Origin: Gloeobacter violaceus PCC 7421
GTDB lineage: Bacteria > Cyanobacteriota > Cyanobacteriia > Gloeobacterales > Gloeobacteraceae
Direction: 5' to 3'
NCBI RefSeq assembly: GCF_000011385.1
Contig: NC_005125.1
Location: 682,001-746,000, forward strand
DNA: 64,000 bases
A program made the translations under genes and the position numbers. Position 1 is the first letter of the stretch, and every line of letters starts with the position of its first letter. Shown in pieces: positions 51,385 to 61,404 of the stretch. The notes beneath the pieces are model-generated. The model saw only the letters and a program-made list of their open reading frames with translations. It searched no databases and was not told the origin of the DNA.

Positions 51385-51446
51385 AACCTTCACCAGACTC
51401 AAGGCACACGGGAGGTTCGCAGGCCCGTGGAAAATCTTGACCGACC

Positions 51447-51482
51447 TTCCCGAATTCTTCACCATCACCTTTTACGCTCAAA
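51447..51482 (+). promoter_or_regulatory. Bipartite conserved element, copy A
   Basis: TTCCCGAATTCTTCACC, 9 nt, then TACGCTCAAA. The same two boxes with the same spacing are found at 51741 and 54639. No gene starts directly after this copy; the next 200 bp run to an intrinsic terminator. Confidence 0.65.
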
Positions 51483-51710
51483 AGTGTTCTTCAAAATATT
51501 GATTAACCGGGCGGAGGCCAGTTTGCAGGCGGTATCGATTCCTAGCGTTTCCCTTCCGCGATAAACGACTTCCAGTTTCCAAGACAGCAGCGCCGCCCTC
51601 GCCCTTCCCCCCGACGGTCCCCCTTCATCCAGCCGCTTCGATGTCGGCGGAATTGCTCACCAATCGGCCTGCTGGCACCCGGTTCCCAATGCGCGGAACC
51701 GGGCTTTTTT
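51483..51710 (+). ncRNA. Possible leader RNA or small RNA ending in a terminator
   Basis: About 230 nt between conserved element A and an intrinsic terminator, with no convincing reading frame. If element A is a promoter, the transcript would be a short RNA, or a leader that attenuates the pseudo-phosphorylase gene 110 bp downstream. Evidence is positional only. Confidence 0.35.
51678..51710 (+). terminator. Intrinsic terminator
   Basis: CCCGGTTCC and GGAACCGGG form a 9-bp perfect stem around an 8-nt loop, followed by C and six T. It lies 294 bp after padR and 31 bp before conserved element B. Confidence 0.88.
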
Positions 51711-51740
51711 GGGCGGCTTGGGATGAACCTGCAAAGTTGC

Positions 51741-51776
51741 TTCTCGGGTTTTTCACCTTTGTTGCTTAGCTTCAAT
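51741..51776 (+). promoter_or_regulatory. Bipartite conserved element, copy B
   Basis: TTCTCGGGTTTTTCACC, 9 nt, then TAGCTTCAAT, ending 44 bp before the start codon of the phosphorylase-like gene. Position suggests a promoter or activator site. Confidence 0.7.
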
Positions 51777-51820
51777 ATGAGCCCGGACAGGCACTTTCCC
51801 ATCGCACGAGGCCTCTTCCC

Positions 51821-54346
51821 ATGCAGCCGCCTCCACCCCAAACACCGCCGGATATGCCGCTGGAGGAGCCGAGTGCCGCCCCCGGCGTCGAGGCTTTGCG
51901 CCAGGCCATCGTCGATAACCTCCGCTATGTTCTGGGCAAAGATCCCTCCCAGGCCGGCGCCCAGGATTTTTTGGCCGCCCTCGCCCATACCGTGCGCGAC
52001 CCGCTGCTGCATCGCTGGCGCAATACCCGCCAGGCTTACTTCGATTGCGGAGCGCGGGTGGTGTGTTATCTGGCCTCGCAATACCGCCCGGGACCGCAAC
52101 TGGTGGCCAATTTGGTGAGCGCGGGCCTCTACGCGCGCTCCGTCGAGGCGCTCGCCGGGCTCGGTGTGCGTCTGGAGGATCTGCTGGCGCTGGAGCGCGA
52201 GCCGCAGCTGGGGCGGCGGGAGGGTTCGAGGCAGGCGGCGAGCCTTGCCGAGGCGCTCGCCACCCAGCAGATGCCCGCGATTGGCTACGGCCTGCGCTAT
52301 GAATTCGGCTCAGAGCAAGTGATCCGCGACGGCTGGCCCTTCGAGCGCCCCGTCCCCTGGCGCTTCGCGGATGACCCCTGGGAGATCCCCCGACCCGAGT
52401 ACCGGGTGGAAGTCCCCCTGGGTGGGCGGACCGAGGCCCATCTCGACGGCGAGAACCGCTACCGGGTGCGCTGGCTGCCCGAAGGCGCCGTGATAGGCGA
52501 ACCTTACGACCGGCTGGTGCCCGGCTACCGCACCCACACCGTCAATACCCTGCGTCTCTGGAGCGCCCGGGCCAGCGAGCAGTTCGATGCGCCGGTGGCC
52601 AATCCGGAAGAATACGCCCGCGCCGTCGAAGCGAAACTCGACTGCGAGCTGATCACCCGGGTACCCTACCCGGCGGGAGACGGTCCCCACCACCAGCGGC
52701 TGCGCCTGCAACAGCAGTATCTGCTCGCCTGCTGCTCCGTGCACGACATCGTGCGGCTTTTTACCCAGACGGGCCGCCCGCTCGGCGAGCTGCCCGAGCG
52801 CGCGGCCATCCACATCGACGACTCCCACCCGCCCATCGCCATTGCCGAATGGATGCGGATCCTGGTCGATCGCCACGACCTGGGGTGGGAGGAAGCCTGG
52901 GAGATGACCGGCCGAATGTTCTCGGCCACCGCCCACACCTGGGCGGTGGAGACGCTTGAGTGCTGGCCGGTGGCGCTGGTTGAGCGCTGGCTGCCCCGGC
53001 ACCTGGAGATTTTGCGCGAGATCGACCGCCGATTCCGCCTGCAGTTGCAAGCACTTCTGGTGGACGAAGCGCAAATTGCCCGCCTGTCGCTTTTTGCGGA
53101 CGATCAGGTGCGCCTGGCTCACCTGGCCTGCATTGCCTGTCACACGGTGGTCGGCACCTCCGAGAGCGCTACCGGGCAGCTGGCGCAGACCGTACTTGCC
53201 GATTTTCACCGGCTCTGGCCGCAAAAATTTCAGACCATCGGCGCGGGCGTCTCGACCCGCCGCTGGTTGGTGCTGGCCAATCCGCCCCTCGCCCGGCTGA
53301 TCGGCGAGCGGATCGGCCCCCACTGGCTGACGCACCCGGAGGGACTCGACGCCCTGCGTCGGCACGCCGCCGACCCGGACTTTCAACGGAGCTGGCGGCA
53401 AATCAAGCAGGCCCACAAGCGTTCCCTTGCCGCTCAATTGCTCGCCACGAGCGGTGTCGCCCTCTCTTCGGAGGCCCTTTTCGATATTCGGCTCGAACCG
53501 TTCGAGGGGTGTCGCCGACAGTTGCTCAGCGCGCTGTACATCGTCACCCTTTTCAATCGCCTCCAGAGCGAACCCGGGGCTAATATCGTCCCGCGCGCGT
53601 TCATCTTTTCGGGATGGCCCCGGCCCGGCGATCCGCTCGGCCGCCTGACTGTCAAACTCATCCACGCCGTCGGCGCGGTCGTCAACGCCGATCCGATCGT
53701 GGCCGGGCGGATCCGGGTCGTCTTCGTGCCCGAACCCACCGTCGCCCTGACCCAAAAAATCTTCGCCGCGGCGGATCTGGCCGAGCAGGACGCCCTGCCG
53801 GGCTTTCAGGCCGGCGACACCGGCAGCCTCTGCGCAGCCCTCAACGGCGCCCTGCTGTTGGGCAGCCCCGACGGGATCAATCTCGAGATCGAACGGACCG
53901 TCGGCCGCGAGCGTTTCTTCGAGTTCGGTCTAAGTACCGGCGAGGGTCAGGCGCTCAAACTCACCGAGTACCAGCCGATGGCTTTCTACCACAGCAACCC
54001 GCTCCTGCGGCAGGTAGTCGACCAGATCGCCACCGGCTACTTCAGCCACGGCGACAGCGAACAGTTCAAGCCCATTGTCGCGGCAATGGTAGAGGATGAC
54101 GAAGCGCTGAATCTGGTCGACTACCAGTCCTATGTCGACGGTCAAGGGAGCGTCGATGCCGCCTACCGCGACCTGGCCCTGTGGACGCGACTCTCGATCG
54201 AGAGCGTCAGCCGCCTCGGGGCCGTCTGCTGTGACCGGACGGCGCGGGAGTACTGCAGCCGCATCTGGCGGCTGCAACCGGTCAAAGTCCACCTCGATGC
54301 CTACAGCCAGCAGGTGATCGCCCTCAAGGGGCGCGAACACCTCTAA
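51821..54346 (+). CDS. Glycogen phosphorylase-like protein with lost active site (pseudoenzyme)
   Basis: A full-length 841-residue relative of GlgP, aligned end to end with the normal enzyme at 58651-61221. The fold is preserved (MPAIGYGLRYEFG, DPWEIPRPEY, GYRTHTVNTLRLWSARA), but key residues are gone. The PLP-binding Lys (Lys700 of the normal copy, GTGNMKFAM) is Cys671 (DTGSLCAAL). The glycine loop GNGGLGRLAA is GRREGSRQAA (131-140). The phosphate site KRVHEYKRQ is EPFEGCRRQ, FAGKAAPGY is FSGWPRPGD, and NKTNGVTPRR is QTIGAGVSTRR. INDTHP has become IDDSHP. The frame has no stop or shift, so the loss is not simple decay. It may bind alpha-glucan or a partner protein as a sensor. Next gene 24 bp away. 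Confidence 0.9.
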   Translation: MQPPPPQTPPDMPLEEPSAAPGVEALRQAIVDNLRYVLGKDPSQAGAQDFLAALAHTVRDPLLHRWRNTRQAYFDCGARVVCYLASQYRPGPQLVANLVSAGLYARSVEALAGLGVRLEDLLALEREPQLGRREGSRQAASLAEALATQQMPAIGYGLRYEFGSEQVIRDGWPFERPVPWRFADDPWEIPRPEYRVEVPLGGRTEAHLDGENRYRVRWLPEGAVIGEPYDRLVPGYRTHTVNTLRLWSARASEQFDAPVANPEEYARAVEAKLDCELITRVPYPAGDGPHHQRLRLQQQYLLACCSVHDIVRLFTQTGRPLGELPERAAIHIDDSHPPIAIAEWMRILVDRHDLGWEEAWEMTGRMFSATAHTWAVETLECWPVALVERWLPRHLEILREIDRRFRLQLQALLVDEAQIARLSLFADDQVRLAHLACIACHTVVGTSESATGQLAQTVLADFHRLWPQKFQTIGAGVSTRRWLVLANPPLARLIGERIGPHWLTHPEGLDALRRHAADPDFQRSWRQIKQAHKRSLAAQLLATSGVALSSEALFDIRLEPFEGCRRQLLSALYIVTLFNRLQSEPGANIVPRAFIFSGWPRPGDPLGRLTVKLIHAVGAVVNADPIVAGRIRVVFVPEPTVALTQKIFAAADLAEQDALPGFQAGDTGSLCAALNGALLLGSPDGINLEIERTVGRERFFEFGLSTGEGQALKLTEYQPMAFYHSNPLLRQVVDQIATGYFSHGDSEQFKPIVAAMVEDDEALNLVDYQSYVDGQGSVDAAYRDLALWTRLSIESVSRLGAVCCDRTAREYCSRIWRLQPVKVHLDAYSQQVIALKGREHL

Positions 54347-54370: not shown

Positions 54371-54613
54371 ATGACTACCCCAACCCTCCACACCGTCAGG
54401 AAAATTGCCCACGCTGCCGACAGCCGACCGGTCTGCTCGATCGGCTGTCTCCACTGCGGTTCGCCTATCGCCTGGCACCGCGACGGCACCGTCTGGCACG
54501 GCCATTGCGCGCAGTGCACCCGGATCCTGCGCGGCCGACTCGGCGACAGCGGCTGCATCGAGGCGACCTATCTTCCCCAGGATGATTTCTACTTGAGTGT
54601 CCGCGGCTGCTGA
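54371..54613 (+). CDS. Small zinc-ribbon protein (80 residues)
   Basis: Not a known family. Two CxxC knuckles, CLHC and CAQC, 17 residues apart (with WHGHCAQC) should bind zinc; further Cys residues stand at both sides (VCSIGC, SGC, RGC). CGGAG-type ribosome site precedes the ATG. Being 24 bp after the pseudo-phosphorylase gene, it is very likely co-transcribed and may be its partner. Confidence 0.75.
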   Translation: MTTPTLHTVRKIAHAADSRPVCSIGCLHCGSPIAWHRDGTVWHGHCAQCTRILRGRLGDSGCIEATYLPQDDFYLSVRGC

Positions 54614-54638: not shown

Positions 54639-54674
54639 TTCCCGAGTTTTTCACCGGCAAGGTCTAGCCTGAAT
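54639..54674 (+). promoter_or_regulatory. Bipartite conserved element, copy C
   Basis: TTCCCGAGTTTTTCACC, 9 nt, then TAGCCTGAAT, ending 36 bp before the PII-like start codon. Same boxes and spacing as copies A and B. Confidence 0.7.
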
Positions 54675-54710: not shown

Positions 54711-55079
54711 ATGAACAAAATCGAAGCGATCATCCAACCTTCCAGGCTCGACGCCGTCGAGCAGGCCCTGGCGGCCATCGGTGTGCAGGGCATGACCGTC
54801 AGCCGGGTTGAAGGCTTCGGCCGGCAGCGCGGCCATTCGGTGATCTTTCGGGGATTCGGGAGCGCCGCGCAGTTTCTTGCCAAGCTCAAACTCGAAATCG
54901 TCGTACCTGACGAATTCACCGAGACGGTTGTCGAGCGAATCGTACAGGCGGCACGCACCGGCAGCGTCGGCGACGGCAAAATCTTTGTGCTGCCTGTCAC
55001 CCAGGCGGTGCGGGTGCGCACCGGCGAGTGCGACCTGGAGGCGGTCCGCTTCGAGAGTCCGGCAGTCCTGATTCACTGA
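54711..55079 (+). CDS. PII-family signal protein with altered T-loop
   Basis: A 122-residue PII protein numbered like E. coli GlnB. The core is normal: MNKIEAIIQPSRLDAVEQAL, GMTVSRVEGFGRQRGH and TGSVGDGKIFVLPVTQAVRV (the B-loop signature). In the T-loop, residues 47-53 read RGFGSAA, so Ser49, phosphorylated in cyanobacterial GlnB, is Phe, and Tyr51, uridylylated in proteobacteria, is Ser. ATP and 2-oxoglutarate contacts in the B- and C-loops remain (R101, R103). A metabolite sensor without covalent control is the likely role; it is too divergent in the T-loop to be the main GlnB. It is 7 bp upstream of the universal stress gene. Confidence 0.9.
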   Translation: MNKIEAIIQPSRLDAVEQALAAIGVQGMTVSRVEGFGRQRGHSVIFRGFGSAAQFLAKLKLEIVVPDEFTETVVERIVQAARTGSVGDGKIFVLPVTQAVRVRTGECDLEAVRFESPAVLIH

Positions 55080-55086
55080 GGGCACC

Positions 55087-55641
55087 ATGTTCACAAAAAT
55101 CCTCGTCGCCCTAGATCAGTCTTCCAGCAACGAACTGGTCTTCGAGAAAGCCTTTGCCCTCGCCCGCCTCGGCGGAGGGTCGCTGATGCTGATGCACGTG
55201 CTGTCGGGGGACGAAGACAACAGCCCCGGCCTGGTCGTTCCGGCGATCACCGACTTCCATCCGCTCAGTTTCGACGACGAGACCCTGGCGTTTTATCGCC
55301 GGGAGTGGGAGCGCTACGAGCAGTTGGGGCGGGCGATGCTCCAGATGTTCGCCGAGCGGGCCGCCGCCGTCGGGGTCATTGCCGAATTTAGCCAGAGCGC
55401 CGGCAGCCCCGGCCCGCAGATCTGCCAGTTGGCCCGCGCCTGGAGCGCCGATTTGATCGTTACCGGGCGGCGGGGACGGCGCGGCATCAGCGAGATGCTT
55501 CTAGGCAGCATCAGCAACTACGTTCTGCACCACGCCCCCTGCTCGGTGCTGGTGGTTACCGGTGCGGAGGATGAGGACAAACCCTTGCCTATTGAGGCCG
55601 GTCTGCAGAAGCCTGCCACTCGTCGGGGGCGAGCGCCCTGA
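55087..55641 (+). CDS. Universal stress protein (UspA family)
   Basis: A 184-residue single-domain UspA protein. KILVALDQSSSNELVFEKAF is the first strand-helix unit and GRRGRRGISEMLLGSISNYV is the ATP-binding motif G-x2-G-x9-G-(S/T). The tail after PCSVLVVTGAEDE is low complexity. It follows the PII-like gene by 7 bp. Its last 53 bp overlap the end of the convergent bolA gene. Confidence 0.92.
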   Translation: MFTKILVALDQSSSNELVFEKAFALARLGGGSLMLMHVLSGDEDNSPGLVVPAITDFHPLSFDDETLAFYRREWERYEQLGRAMLQMFAERAAAVGVIAEFSQSAGSPGPQICQLARAWSADLIVTGRRGRRGISEMLLGSISNYVLHHAPCSVLVVTGAEDEDKPLPIEAGLQKPATRRGRAP

Positions 55642-58650: not shown

Positions 58651-61221
58651 CTATCCGTTTAGTTCGACAGCAACCGGTCCGGTTTTCCAAATGTCGCGGC
58701 AGTACTCGCCCATGCTGCGGTCGGAGGAAAAATAGCCCATGCGCACGGCATTGAGGATCGACATGGTCGTCCAGCGCTCGGAGTCGGCGAAGGCAGCGTC
58801 TACCTGTTGCTGGCAGTCGAGGTAGACCTGGTAGTCGGCAAACAGCAAGTATTCGTCGCGGGCCATCAGGGCATCGACCAGGGGCCTGAACAGATCCGGC
58901 CGGCCGGGGGAAAAATGCCCCGAGGCCACCAGATCGATGACGCTCCGCAGTTCGGTGTTGGTCTGGTAGTAATCGTTTGGGTGGTAGCCGCGTGCCTTGA
59001 GCGCGTAGACCTGCTGGGCGGTGAGCCCGAACAAGAAAAAGTTCTCAGGCCCGACTTGCTCGCGAATCTCGATATTGGCGCCATCCAGGGTGCCGATGGT
59101 GAGCGCCCCGCCCATGGCGAATTTCATGTTGCCGGTGCCGCTTGCCTCCTTGCCCGCGGTCGAAATTTGCTCGGACAGATCGGCGGCCGGATAGATTCGC
59201 TGGGCGAGCGAGACGTTGAAGTTGGCGAGAAATACGACTTTGAGCCGCCCGCCCACGTCCGGGTCGGCGTTGATGATGGCGGCGACAGAATGAATGCATT
59301 TGATGATGAGCTTGGCCATCGTGTAGCCCGGCGCCGCCTTGCCCGCAAAGATGAACGTGCGCGGCTGCAGGGCCATAGCCGGATTTTGCTTGAGGCGGTG
59401 GTAGAGAGTGATGACATACAGGAGCATCAACAACTGGCGCTTGTACTCGTGGACGCGCTTGACCTGGATGTCGAAGAGCGAATCGGGGGCGACCTCGATG
59501 CCGTTGAAATGGAGGATGTATTCGGCCAGATCGTGTTTGTTGTCGGCTTTGATTTGTTTCCAGGAGGCGCGAAAATCGGCGTCGTGCAGGTGGTCTTCGA
59601 GTTTGCGCAGTAAGGCGAGATCGCGGATCCACTCCTGGCCGAGCCGCTCGGTGTAGAGCAGCGCCAGCTTCGGATTGGACAGCAGCACGAAGCGCCGGGG
59701 GGTGACGCCGTTGGTCTTGTTGGAAAATTTTTCGGGGGTGAGGGCGTAGAAATCGGCCAGCACATCCTGCTCCAACAGTTCGGTGTGCAGTTTGGCGACA
59801 CCGTTGATGGCGTGGCTGCCCACGCAGGCAAGATTGGCCATGCGCACGTACTTTTCGGAGCCTTCTTGAATCAGCGACAGGCGGGCGATGCGGGCCTCGT
59901 CGTTGCCGAAGCGCGAGCGCGCCAGGTGCAAGAAGCGTTCGTTGATCTCGTAGATGATTTCTAGATGCCGGGGCAACAGCCGCCCGAACAGCGACACCGG
60001 CCAGCGTTCGAGCGCTTCACTGAGCAGCGTGTGGTTGGTGTAGGCAAAGACTTTCTGGGTGATCTGCCAGGCTCTGTCCCACTCGATCAAGTACTCGTCG
60101 ACCAATAGCCGCATCAACTCGGCGATGCCGATGGCCGGGTGGGTGTCGTTGATCTGGATGGTCACCTTGTCTGTAAAGCTGTCGAGGTCCACATGGTGAT
60201 CCCAGTAGCGCCGCAGGATGTCCTGCAGCGAACAGCTGACAAAAAAATATTGCTGCTCCAGGCGCAATTCCTTGCCCTGGTAGGTGTTGTCGTTTGGGTA
60301 GAGCACTTTGGTGATGTTTTCTGAGTACGTCTTGCCCGCCACCGCCCGGGCAAAATCCCCCGAGTTGAACACCTGGAAATCAAAATCCTCGGTGGCTCGG
60401 GCGCTCCAGAGGCGCAGGGTGTTGACGGTGTTGGTGCGGTAGCCCGGAACCGGGGTGTCGTAGGGGGTACCCAGGACCGAGCGCTCGTGCACCCAACTGA
60501 CCCGGTAGCGCCCCTGGGGATCGGTGTAGGCTTCGGTGTGGCCGCCGAACTTGACCTCCACCAGGTACTCGGGCCGGGGGATTTCCCAGGGGTTGCCGTA
60601 GCGCAGCCAGCGGTCGGGCTGCTCGAACTGCCAGCCGCCCTGGATAGTCTGGGCGAAGATGCCGAATTCGTAGCGGATGCCGTAGCCGATGGCGGGTACA
60701 CCGAGGGTGGCAAGCGAATCCATAAAGCAGGCGGCCAGACGCCCGAGTCCGCCGTTGCCCAATCCCGGTTCGTTCTCCTGCTCCATCAGGTCGACAAGCT
60801 CGAAGCCGAGTTCGCGCAAAAACGTGCGCGCCGGTTCGTAGAGACCGACGTTGACCAAGGCGTTACCGAGTTGGCGACCCGGCAGATATTCCGCTGAGAA
60901 GTAGCACACCGAGCGCACGTCCTGCTTGAGATACGTCTCCTGGGTGTGGATCCACCGCTGCAACAGCCGGTCGCGCACTGTCCAGGAGAGGGCCATGTAG
61001 AGGTCGTAGGGCGTGGCGTTCTGCAGATCCTTGGCCTGGATGTAGTACAGATTGTCCAGAAAGGCGCGCTTGAGTGTCTCGGTGTCCATGCCGGTGCGGT
61101 CGTCCTCGACCTGCACGCGCACCTGGGGGGTGCGCAGGACGTGCTTTTTGAGGTCGGTGGGCAAGGCGGCGTGCTTTTCGGGGCGTTTTTTCCAGGTCGC
61201 CTGGTACTCGCTGAGGGTCAT
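58651..61221 (-). CDS. glgP: Glycogen phosphorylase
   Basis: An 856-residue PLP enzyme releasing glucose 1-phosphate from glycogen. All active-site motifs are intact: GNGGLGRLAACFMDSLATLG, INDTHPAIGIAELMRLLVDE, YTNHTLL, NKTNGVTPRRF, VKRVHEYKRQ, FAGKAAPGY and EASGTGNMKFAMGGA with PLP Lys700. The ATG at 61221 (MTLSEYQATWKKRPEKH) follows AGAGG. It is the functional counterpart of the altered paralogue at 51821-54346. Confidence 0.97.
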   Translation of the reverse strand: MTLSEYQATWKKRPEKHAALPTDLKKHVLRTPQVRVQVEDDRTGMDTETLKRAFLDNLYYIQAKDLQNATPYDLYMALSWTVRDRLLQRWIHTQETYLKQDVRSVCYFSAEYLPGRQLGNALVNVGLYEPARTFLRELGFELVDLMEQENEPGLGNGGLGRLAACFMDSLATLGVPAIGYGIRYEFGIFAQTIQGGWQFEQPDRWLRYGNPWEIPRPEYLVEVKFGGHTEAYTDPQGRYRVSWVHERSVLGTPYDTPVPGYRTNTVNTLRLWSARATEDFDFQVFNSGDFARAVAGKTYSENITKVLYPNDNTYQGKELRLEQQYFFVSCSLQDILRRYWDHHVDLDSFTDKVTIQINDTHPAIGIAELMRLLVDEYLIEWDRAWQITQKVFAYTNHTLLSEALERWPVSLFGRLLPRHLEIIYEINERFLHLARSRFGNDEARIARLSLIQEGSEKYVRMANLACVGSHAINGVAKLHTELLEQDVLADFYALTPEKFSNKTNGVTPRRFVLLSNPKLALLYTERLGQEWIRDLALLRKLEDHLHDADFRASWKQIKADNKHDLAEYILHFNGIEVAPDSLFDIQVKRVHEYKRQLLMLLYVITLYHRLKQNPAMALQPRTFIFAGKAAPGYTMAKLIIKCIHSVAAIINADPDVGGRLKVVFLANFNVSLAQRIYPAADLSEQISTAGKEASGTGNMKFAMGGALTIGTLDGANIEIREQVGPENFFLFGLTAQQVYALKARGYHPNDYYQTNTELRSVIDLVASGHFSPGRPDLFRPLVDALMARDEYLLFADYQVYLDCQQQVDAAFADSERWTTMSILNAVRMGYFSSDRSMGEYCRDIWKTGPVAVELNG

Positions 61222-61404
61222 TTTCTGGGCCTCTTTGCCGAACGGGTCGCAACGCGGCGCAACCTGCTTCGAGTGTAGGGCAACAGCCGAGGGGCAGTGC
61301 GCCTGTGGTCCCAGCACCAAGGTTCAGGCAAGAGGAGCTTGAAGAGAGTGCTCAGAAAAGCTATGGTCTGCTCAAATCCAGCTGTTCTCGTTCTGGAAAA
61401 ATCA

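Follow-up and report, generated by a model that had tools for sequence, protein, structure and literature searches.

Glycogen phosphorylase (GlgP) is among the best-studied enzymes, and the window analysed here (a 64,000-nt stretch, positions 682001-746000, of the Gloeobacter violaceus PCC 7421 genome) encodes a full-length member of its family with a cysteine at the position of the pyridoxal phosphate (PLP) lysine. This raises the question of whether the gene, hereafter pseudo-GlgP, is a decaying duplicate or is kept for something other than catalysis, as proposed in an earlier note made from the letters and their translations. The features of the locus are collected in Table 1.

Table 1. Features at the pseudo-GlgP locus, with positions in the window.
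Feature	Position	Strand	Details
Conserved leader of the pseudo-GlgP gene	51429..51820	+	~87–88% identity where alignable in three species; gene order further upstream differs
Distal copy of the box	51447..51463	+	2 mismatches (1 in both relatives)
Terminator-like hairpin	51678..51712	+	9-bp stem then T6; start codon ~110 nt further on; stem kept in three species, loop not
Shared box, exact	51741..51757	+	64–80 nt upstream of the pseudo-GlgP start
Pseudo-GlgP	51821..54346	+	841 a.a.; Cys671 at the PLP lysine position; frame, PF00343, residue alignment, dN/dS
Former glycine loop	52202..52231	+	codons 128–137, now PQLGRREGSR; translation, alignment
Former phosphate-binding loop (KRxHEYK)	53495..53515	+	codons 559–565, now EPFEGCR; translation, alignment
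Former PLP loop (EASGTGNMK)	53807..53833	+	codons 663–671, now QAGDTGSLC; translation, alignment
Small protein, CxxC...CxxC	54371..54613	+	80 a.a.; 24 bp downstream of pseudo-GlgP; placed likewise in three species
Shared box, exact	54639..54655	+	56–72 nt upstream of the PII paralogue start
PII paralogue	54711..55079	+	122 a.a.; PF00543, E 2.4e-31; effector-binding residues kept, T-loop tip replaced
Universal stress protein (Usp)	55087..55641	+	8 bp after PII; gap ~190 bp and 1655 bp in relatives
Near working GlgP	58651..61320	-	all catalytic residues, EASGTGNMK intact; convergent to pseudo-GlgP; TTG start, in-frame ATG 33 codons on

A full-length phosphorylase with an altered catalytic centre

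The frame of pseudo-GlgP is unbroken over its 841 codons, as the earlier note had stated, and residues 112–817 of the product match the whole of the phosphorylase profile (PF00343; E 3.4e-237, 789.7 bits), giving full-length homology to family GT35. The 4,659,019-base single-contig genome contains three GT35 phosphorylases: pseudo-GlgP, the near GlgP 4.3 kb away on the opposite strand, and a second working GlgP at G000:C1:1068246, with pseudo-GlgP sharing 46% and 45% identity with the two active proteins. Its best sequence match was a Crocosphaera phosphorylase (PDB 9wvu, 700 bits). The same structure was the top Foldseek match (TM 0.69, rmsd 14.8) to an AlphaFold2 model of pseudo-GlgP, a match that confirms the family and nothing more, the model (alignment of 5 rows only, pLDDT 63.8, pTM 0.50) being too weak for its pocket or interface to be read. 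It is sequence homology alone that argues for a phosphorylase fold.

We aligned pseudo-GlgP with rabbit muscle glycogen phosphorylase (GP) and with 30 other GlgP rows. The rabbit PLP lysine (K680) is Lys in all of these 30 rows and Cys671 in pseudo-GlgP, with Cys also in both of its orthologues. The glycine loop carries R, E, and S in place of G134, G135, and G137, the phosphate ligands K568, R569, and K574 are replaced by E, P, and R, and the PLP loop has Q, G, and D for E672, S674, and G675; all six phosphate-site positions (G134, G135, K568, R569, K574, G675) are thus changed (R, E, E, P, R, D). Also altered are H571 (E), Y573 (C), and N484 (A), with the NKTNG segment gone. At every changed position the canonical residue is found in all 30 other rows, bearing out the losses read from the translation in the earlier note, and the family alignment proposed there revealed the same replacements in the two orthologues wherever sequence was present. 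Over 210 canonical-invariant columns, pseudo-GlgP has lost 25 of 35 in the active site, a column list which we take from general knowledge of rabbit phosphorylase, versus 60 of 175 elsewhere (Fisher p = 6e-5). Because the PLP and phosphate sites are nearly all changed, catalysis via the known GT35 mechanism would not be expected of pseudo-GlgP.

Of the positions that we take to contact the acceptor glucan, five of seven are kept (Y280, R292, D339, H341, E382; changed E88Q, Y613D), against one of eight that we take to serve PLP and phosphate, a grouping by known residue role, drawn up after the alignment was seen. This difference suggests that pseudo-GlgP may retain a glucan groove without the chemistry. 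The best-conserved block lies in the N-terminal domain (residues 149–260; 62% to the near GlgP), and the tower-helix/gate region of the dimer interface is poorly conserved (33–37%; 37% to the near GlgP).

Orthologues, selection, and gene history

Orthologues with the same losses are present in genome G003 (92%) and in an Aphanocapsa lilacina MAG (90%), placing the gene in three of the nine genomes searched of the order, all within the genus; it was absent from the fourth genome of the genus (G002) in that search. Among the full-length matches listed from 386 genomes of the phylum, this gene aside, identity was ~36–46%, the level of canonical GlgPs. The window and G003 copies differ in length by one extra codon. 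The MAG copy lacks residues 513–610, 98 codons of the C-terminal domain, in frame (L033:9474-9515); the junction contains no N and no clear repeat, and the gap may be genuine or stem from faulty assembly.

The dN/dS comparison put forward in the earlier note gave values indicative of purifying selection (Nei–Gojobori): 0.233 for the window versus G003, 0.276 for the window versus the MAG, and 0.301 for G003 versus the MAG. The synonymous excess is significant against neutrality (Fisher p 7e-20 and 2e-14), and the differences fall at codon positions 1, 2, and 3 in the ratio 43/27/99, i.e., 99 of 169 at the third. An antisense ORF within the gene (52310-53755, 481 a.a.) was rejected as a selected product, given that substitutions track the sense codon phase. 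The active GlgPs returned lower dN/dS values (0.155 for the near GlgP and 0.089–0.108 for the distant one), and the second active GlgP is two to three times more strongly constrained than pseudo-GlgP. Given purifying selection (dN/dS 0.23–0.30) together with the same losses in its orthologues, pseudo-GlgP is, as far as these comparisons can indicate, a maintained pseudoenzyme and not debris, held more loosely than the active enzymes. The earlier claim of a pseudoenzyme kept by selection therefore stands. As to the accompanying concern that orthologues might prove decayed or absent in close strains, the G003 copy has neither frameshift nor stop, the gene is missing from G002, and the MAG copy is shortened.

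In the gene tree, the dead Gloeobacter clade received 100/100 support. Its placement was not rejected either with the near Gloeobacter GlgP (3.8 lnL units better, AU p 0.625) or with the far GlgP (p 0.18), and the clade uniting all dead GlgPs (described below) had an SH-aLRT of 95 but joins long branches. Given these long branches and unrejected placements, the dead GlgPs may have a single origin or several.

Leader, shared box, and neighbouring genes

When 3.8 kb upstream of pseudo-GlgP was compared by blastn, the leader block alone matched in the two relatives (L036 and L033). Within the leader we noted a 17-bp box, TYCYCGRGTTTTTCACC, whose 16-base core is found without mismatch only twice in the 4.66 Mb genome, once upstream of pseudo-GlgP and once upstream of the PII paralogue. 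Both copies are found in all three species, along with a third, diverged copy further upstream. Three box matches were observed in the window versus 0.05 in shuffles, an optimistic figure for a motif first spotted by eye; the genome-wide uniqueness and conservation of the box support it separately from this statistic. We take the box as a putative promoter or operator common to the pseudo-GlgP and PII paralogue genes. No Rfam family scored above its gathering score in the leader, where the terminator-like hairpin is a possible attenuator.

Three genomes preserve the order of pseudo-GlgP, CxxC protein, and PII paralogue, the genes upstream being different. The earlier note had described the neighbours as a zinc-ribbon protein and a PII-like protein, with a real GlgP 4.3 kb away. 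The last of these is correct, its catalytic residues being intact, and the PII-like protein is indeed a PF00543 member; the first, the 80-a.a. protein, has two CxxC pairs and no Pfam match. The PII paralogue is 97% identical in two pseudo-GlgP genomes and at most 61% identical to any PII in four other genomes searched. Compared to the canonical PII of the genome, it keeps GFGRQ, the lysine of FLxKLK, GDGK, and RxRTGE, which we take from general PII knowledge to form the effector site for ATP, ADP, and 2-oxoglutarate; with its Pfam match and these residues, it can be classed as a PII signal protein. The T-loop, presumably the contact to partner proteins, reads IFRGFGSAA versus RYRGSEYTV in canonical PII and does not qualify as a canonical T-loop.

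The downstream Usp gene was dropped as a linked gene, given that its distance to PII ranges from 8 to 1655 bp. PII and Usp, 8 bp apart in the window, are separated in G003 by a gene for a 552-a.a. AAA_33/APH-like protein (L037:1665-3323).

Dead phosphorylases in other cyanobacteria and a possible role

Pseudo-GlgP had been regarded as an isolated single case, which it is not. By counting GlgP matches against the EASGTxNMK codon pattern, we found dead phosphorylases in two further groups, genus g77 (family f33) and family f26. All ten g77 species searched (L108-L117) contain an 834–855-a.a. dead paralogue beside one canonical GlgP, with the changes N133Y, G135N, R138Q, H377P, K568E, H571Q, E672K, and T676I/L, a lost glycine loop, a retained Lys680, and a dN/dS of 0.11–0.21. 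Directly upstream of a g77 dead GlgP lies a gene for a transaldolase with C-terminal EF-hands (L073:4270-5496).

Family f26 carries a divergent GlgP domain in 13 of 36 genomes, spanning 7 genera. In the 12 sequences of the fusion type, K680 is Ile in 10 and otherwise Ala or Met, with H341D and T378S also noted, and the seven tested by Pfam (L092, L094, L096, L097, L099, L100, L102) are N-terminal PBP_like_2 (PF12849) fusions, some with TPR. For example, L100:4654-9627 comprises PBP_like_2, one membrane helix, a linker or TPR and, at the C-terminus, a phosphorylase domain lacking the PLP lysine. In most of the fusions there is a segment resembling a signal peptide, and the PBP and phosphorylase parts are separated by a hydrophobic helix with basic residues after it. 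This layout predicts a sensor in the periplasm joined to a dead phosphorylase in the cytoplasm, apparently a receptor architecture not described before. A plasmid search for the fusion type returned matches below 60% identity only, the annotated ones being named phosphorylase. The G449 fusion has a canonical GlgP 5.4 kb away and sits amid phosphoketolase, 2-hydroxyacid dehydrogenase, phosphoglucose isomerase (PGI), and histidine phosphatase genes. Between a fusion gene and the PGI and active GlgP genes sits L100:10197-13079, encoding a 960-a.a. protein that starts with PBP_like_2 and whose long C-terminal part matches no Pfam family. A 131-a.a. ORF, likewise without Pfam match, directly follows three fusions (L092:8156-8551, L097:2276-2671, L101:1753-2148). 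Four further f26 loci (L076, L091, L093, L103) hold a more degenerate phosphorylase-like class, some with an N-terminal membrane anchor. Identity and bit-score outliers in G451, G453, and G441 were rejected as further dead copies, their residues being canonical, and the ORF in G421 was incomplete.

All three main dead groups lose phosphate/PLP residues and keep most glucan-acceptor residues, with Y280, R292, D339, and E382 kept in each (one representative each for f33 and f26). We raise as a tentative idea, on the doubtful side, that cyanobacteria have repeatedly made GlgP into a non-catalytic glucan-sensing module, soluble and tied to a dedicated PII paralogue via a private promoter in Gloeobacter, and in the other family as a transmembrane receptor that joins a PstS-like periplasmic domain to a dead phosphorylase in the cytoplasm and could signal external phosphate or sugar to the store of glycogen.

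Our best explanation for pseudo-GlgP, held with middling confidence, is a non-catalytic glucan-binding paralogue with a regulatory or scaffolding role in glycogen mobilisation, acting with the PII paralogue. Pseudo-GlgP would bind chains of alpha-glucan, either by itself or in a mixed dimer with the near active GlgP, and when bound would tune or position glycogen breakdown. The presumably co-expressed PII paralogue would couple it to the energy or carbon/nitrogen state, possibly by binding pseudo-GlgP or the CxxC protein encoded between them; different partners from those of canonical PII may be expected, since the T-loop tip is replaced and SEY lost. The mixed dimer is uncertain because of the poorly kept tower-helix/gate region. 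Against a regulatory role stand the weaker constraint relative to the active enzymes and the absence from G002, and against the PII link its restriction to one genus and a motif chosen by eye; an essential full fold is hard to reconcile with the MAG copy lacking 98 codons. The first part of the earlier proposal, selection on a dead protein, is seen as purifying selection, and the second, a part in glycogen control without catalysis, becomes likelier in view of the genome-unique box common with the PII paralogue and of the recurrence of dead phosphorylases.

The raised dN/dS, the G002 absence, and the MAG deletion would suit a slowly decaying duplicate, under relaxed selection since catalysis was lost and without present function. 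However, given a synonymous distance of 0.167, ~4x the observed amino-acid changes would be predicted under neutral drift (p 7e-20), 841 codons have passed between two species without frameshift or stop, the leader and box are conserved, and the stem branch (~3.2 changes per column) versus the tips (0.02–0.04) describes fast change followed by stability, making decay improbable. Somewhat less probable again is a neofunctionalised enzyme or binding protein for a new ligand, unconnected with GlgP, with Cys671, Cys564, His336, and His372 as potential members of a redox or metal site: two former active-site positions are now Cys (K680C, Y573C), two active-site His are kept, and a small CxxC protein is encoded adjacent. 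Yet Cys564 falls within the stretch deleted from the MAG copy, the AlphaFold model is weak at the pocket and lends no spatial support, and we know of no GT-B chemistry that uses a Cys/His redox or metal site.

Equally slim in our estimation is a dominant-negative subunit, whose mixed dimers with GlgP would lower its activity without glucan or PII playing a part. Cyanobacterial GlgPs function as homodimers (PMC12892837), the N-terminal strands 149–260 are the best conserved, and an active GlgP gene is close by, but the divergent tower helix counts against such pairing, and a dimerisation role shared by the dead GlgPs is unlikely given that the f26 fusions lack several of the columns between 252 and 266.

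In the open-access literature, hence as a weak negative, we found no description of GlgP pseudoenzymes or of Gloeobacter GlgP, and no natural GT35 pseudoenzyme; in a 2026 paper on carbon metabolism in the Gloeobacteraceae, glycogen phosphorylase is mentioned a single time, in the legend to a figure. Annotation by family only labels dead GlgPs as active phosphorylases, which misleads metabolic models. Binding of glycogen or GlgP by the dead GlgPs, if it occurs, would amount to a new layer of cyanobacterial carbon-storage control, comparable to that of BAM4 and BAM9 in plants, and would offer a tractable way of testing how stored sugar is sensed by cells; the transmembrane PBP/pseudophosphorylase fusions would represent a new type of receptor.

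Among known systems, the GT35 enzymes (GlgP, rabbit GP, Crocosphaera PDB 9wvu) share whole-length homology with pseudo-GlgP, which differs from them in lacking the PLP lysine, the glycine loop, and the ligands of phosphate. The PII paralogue resembles canonical cyanobacterial PII (GlnB) in family and effector residues, and departs from it in its replaced T-loop tip and in being seen at such identity only with pseudo-GlgP. GlgP1 and GlgP2 of Synechocystis are paralogues with divided roles in one cyanobacterium (PMC12892837), both catalytically active, unlike the dead third paralogue in Gloeobacter. The plant proteins BAM4 and BAM9 are inactive, yet affect starch breakdown (PMC12892837). As full-length inactive paralogues of a glucan-degrading enzyme they parallel pseudo-GlgP in kind, although they belong to an unrelated fold and family of hydrolases and act in the plastid.
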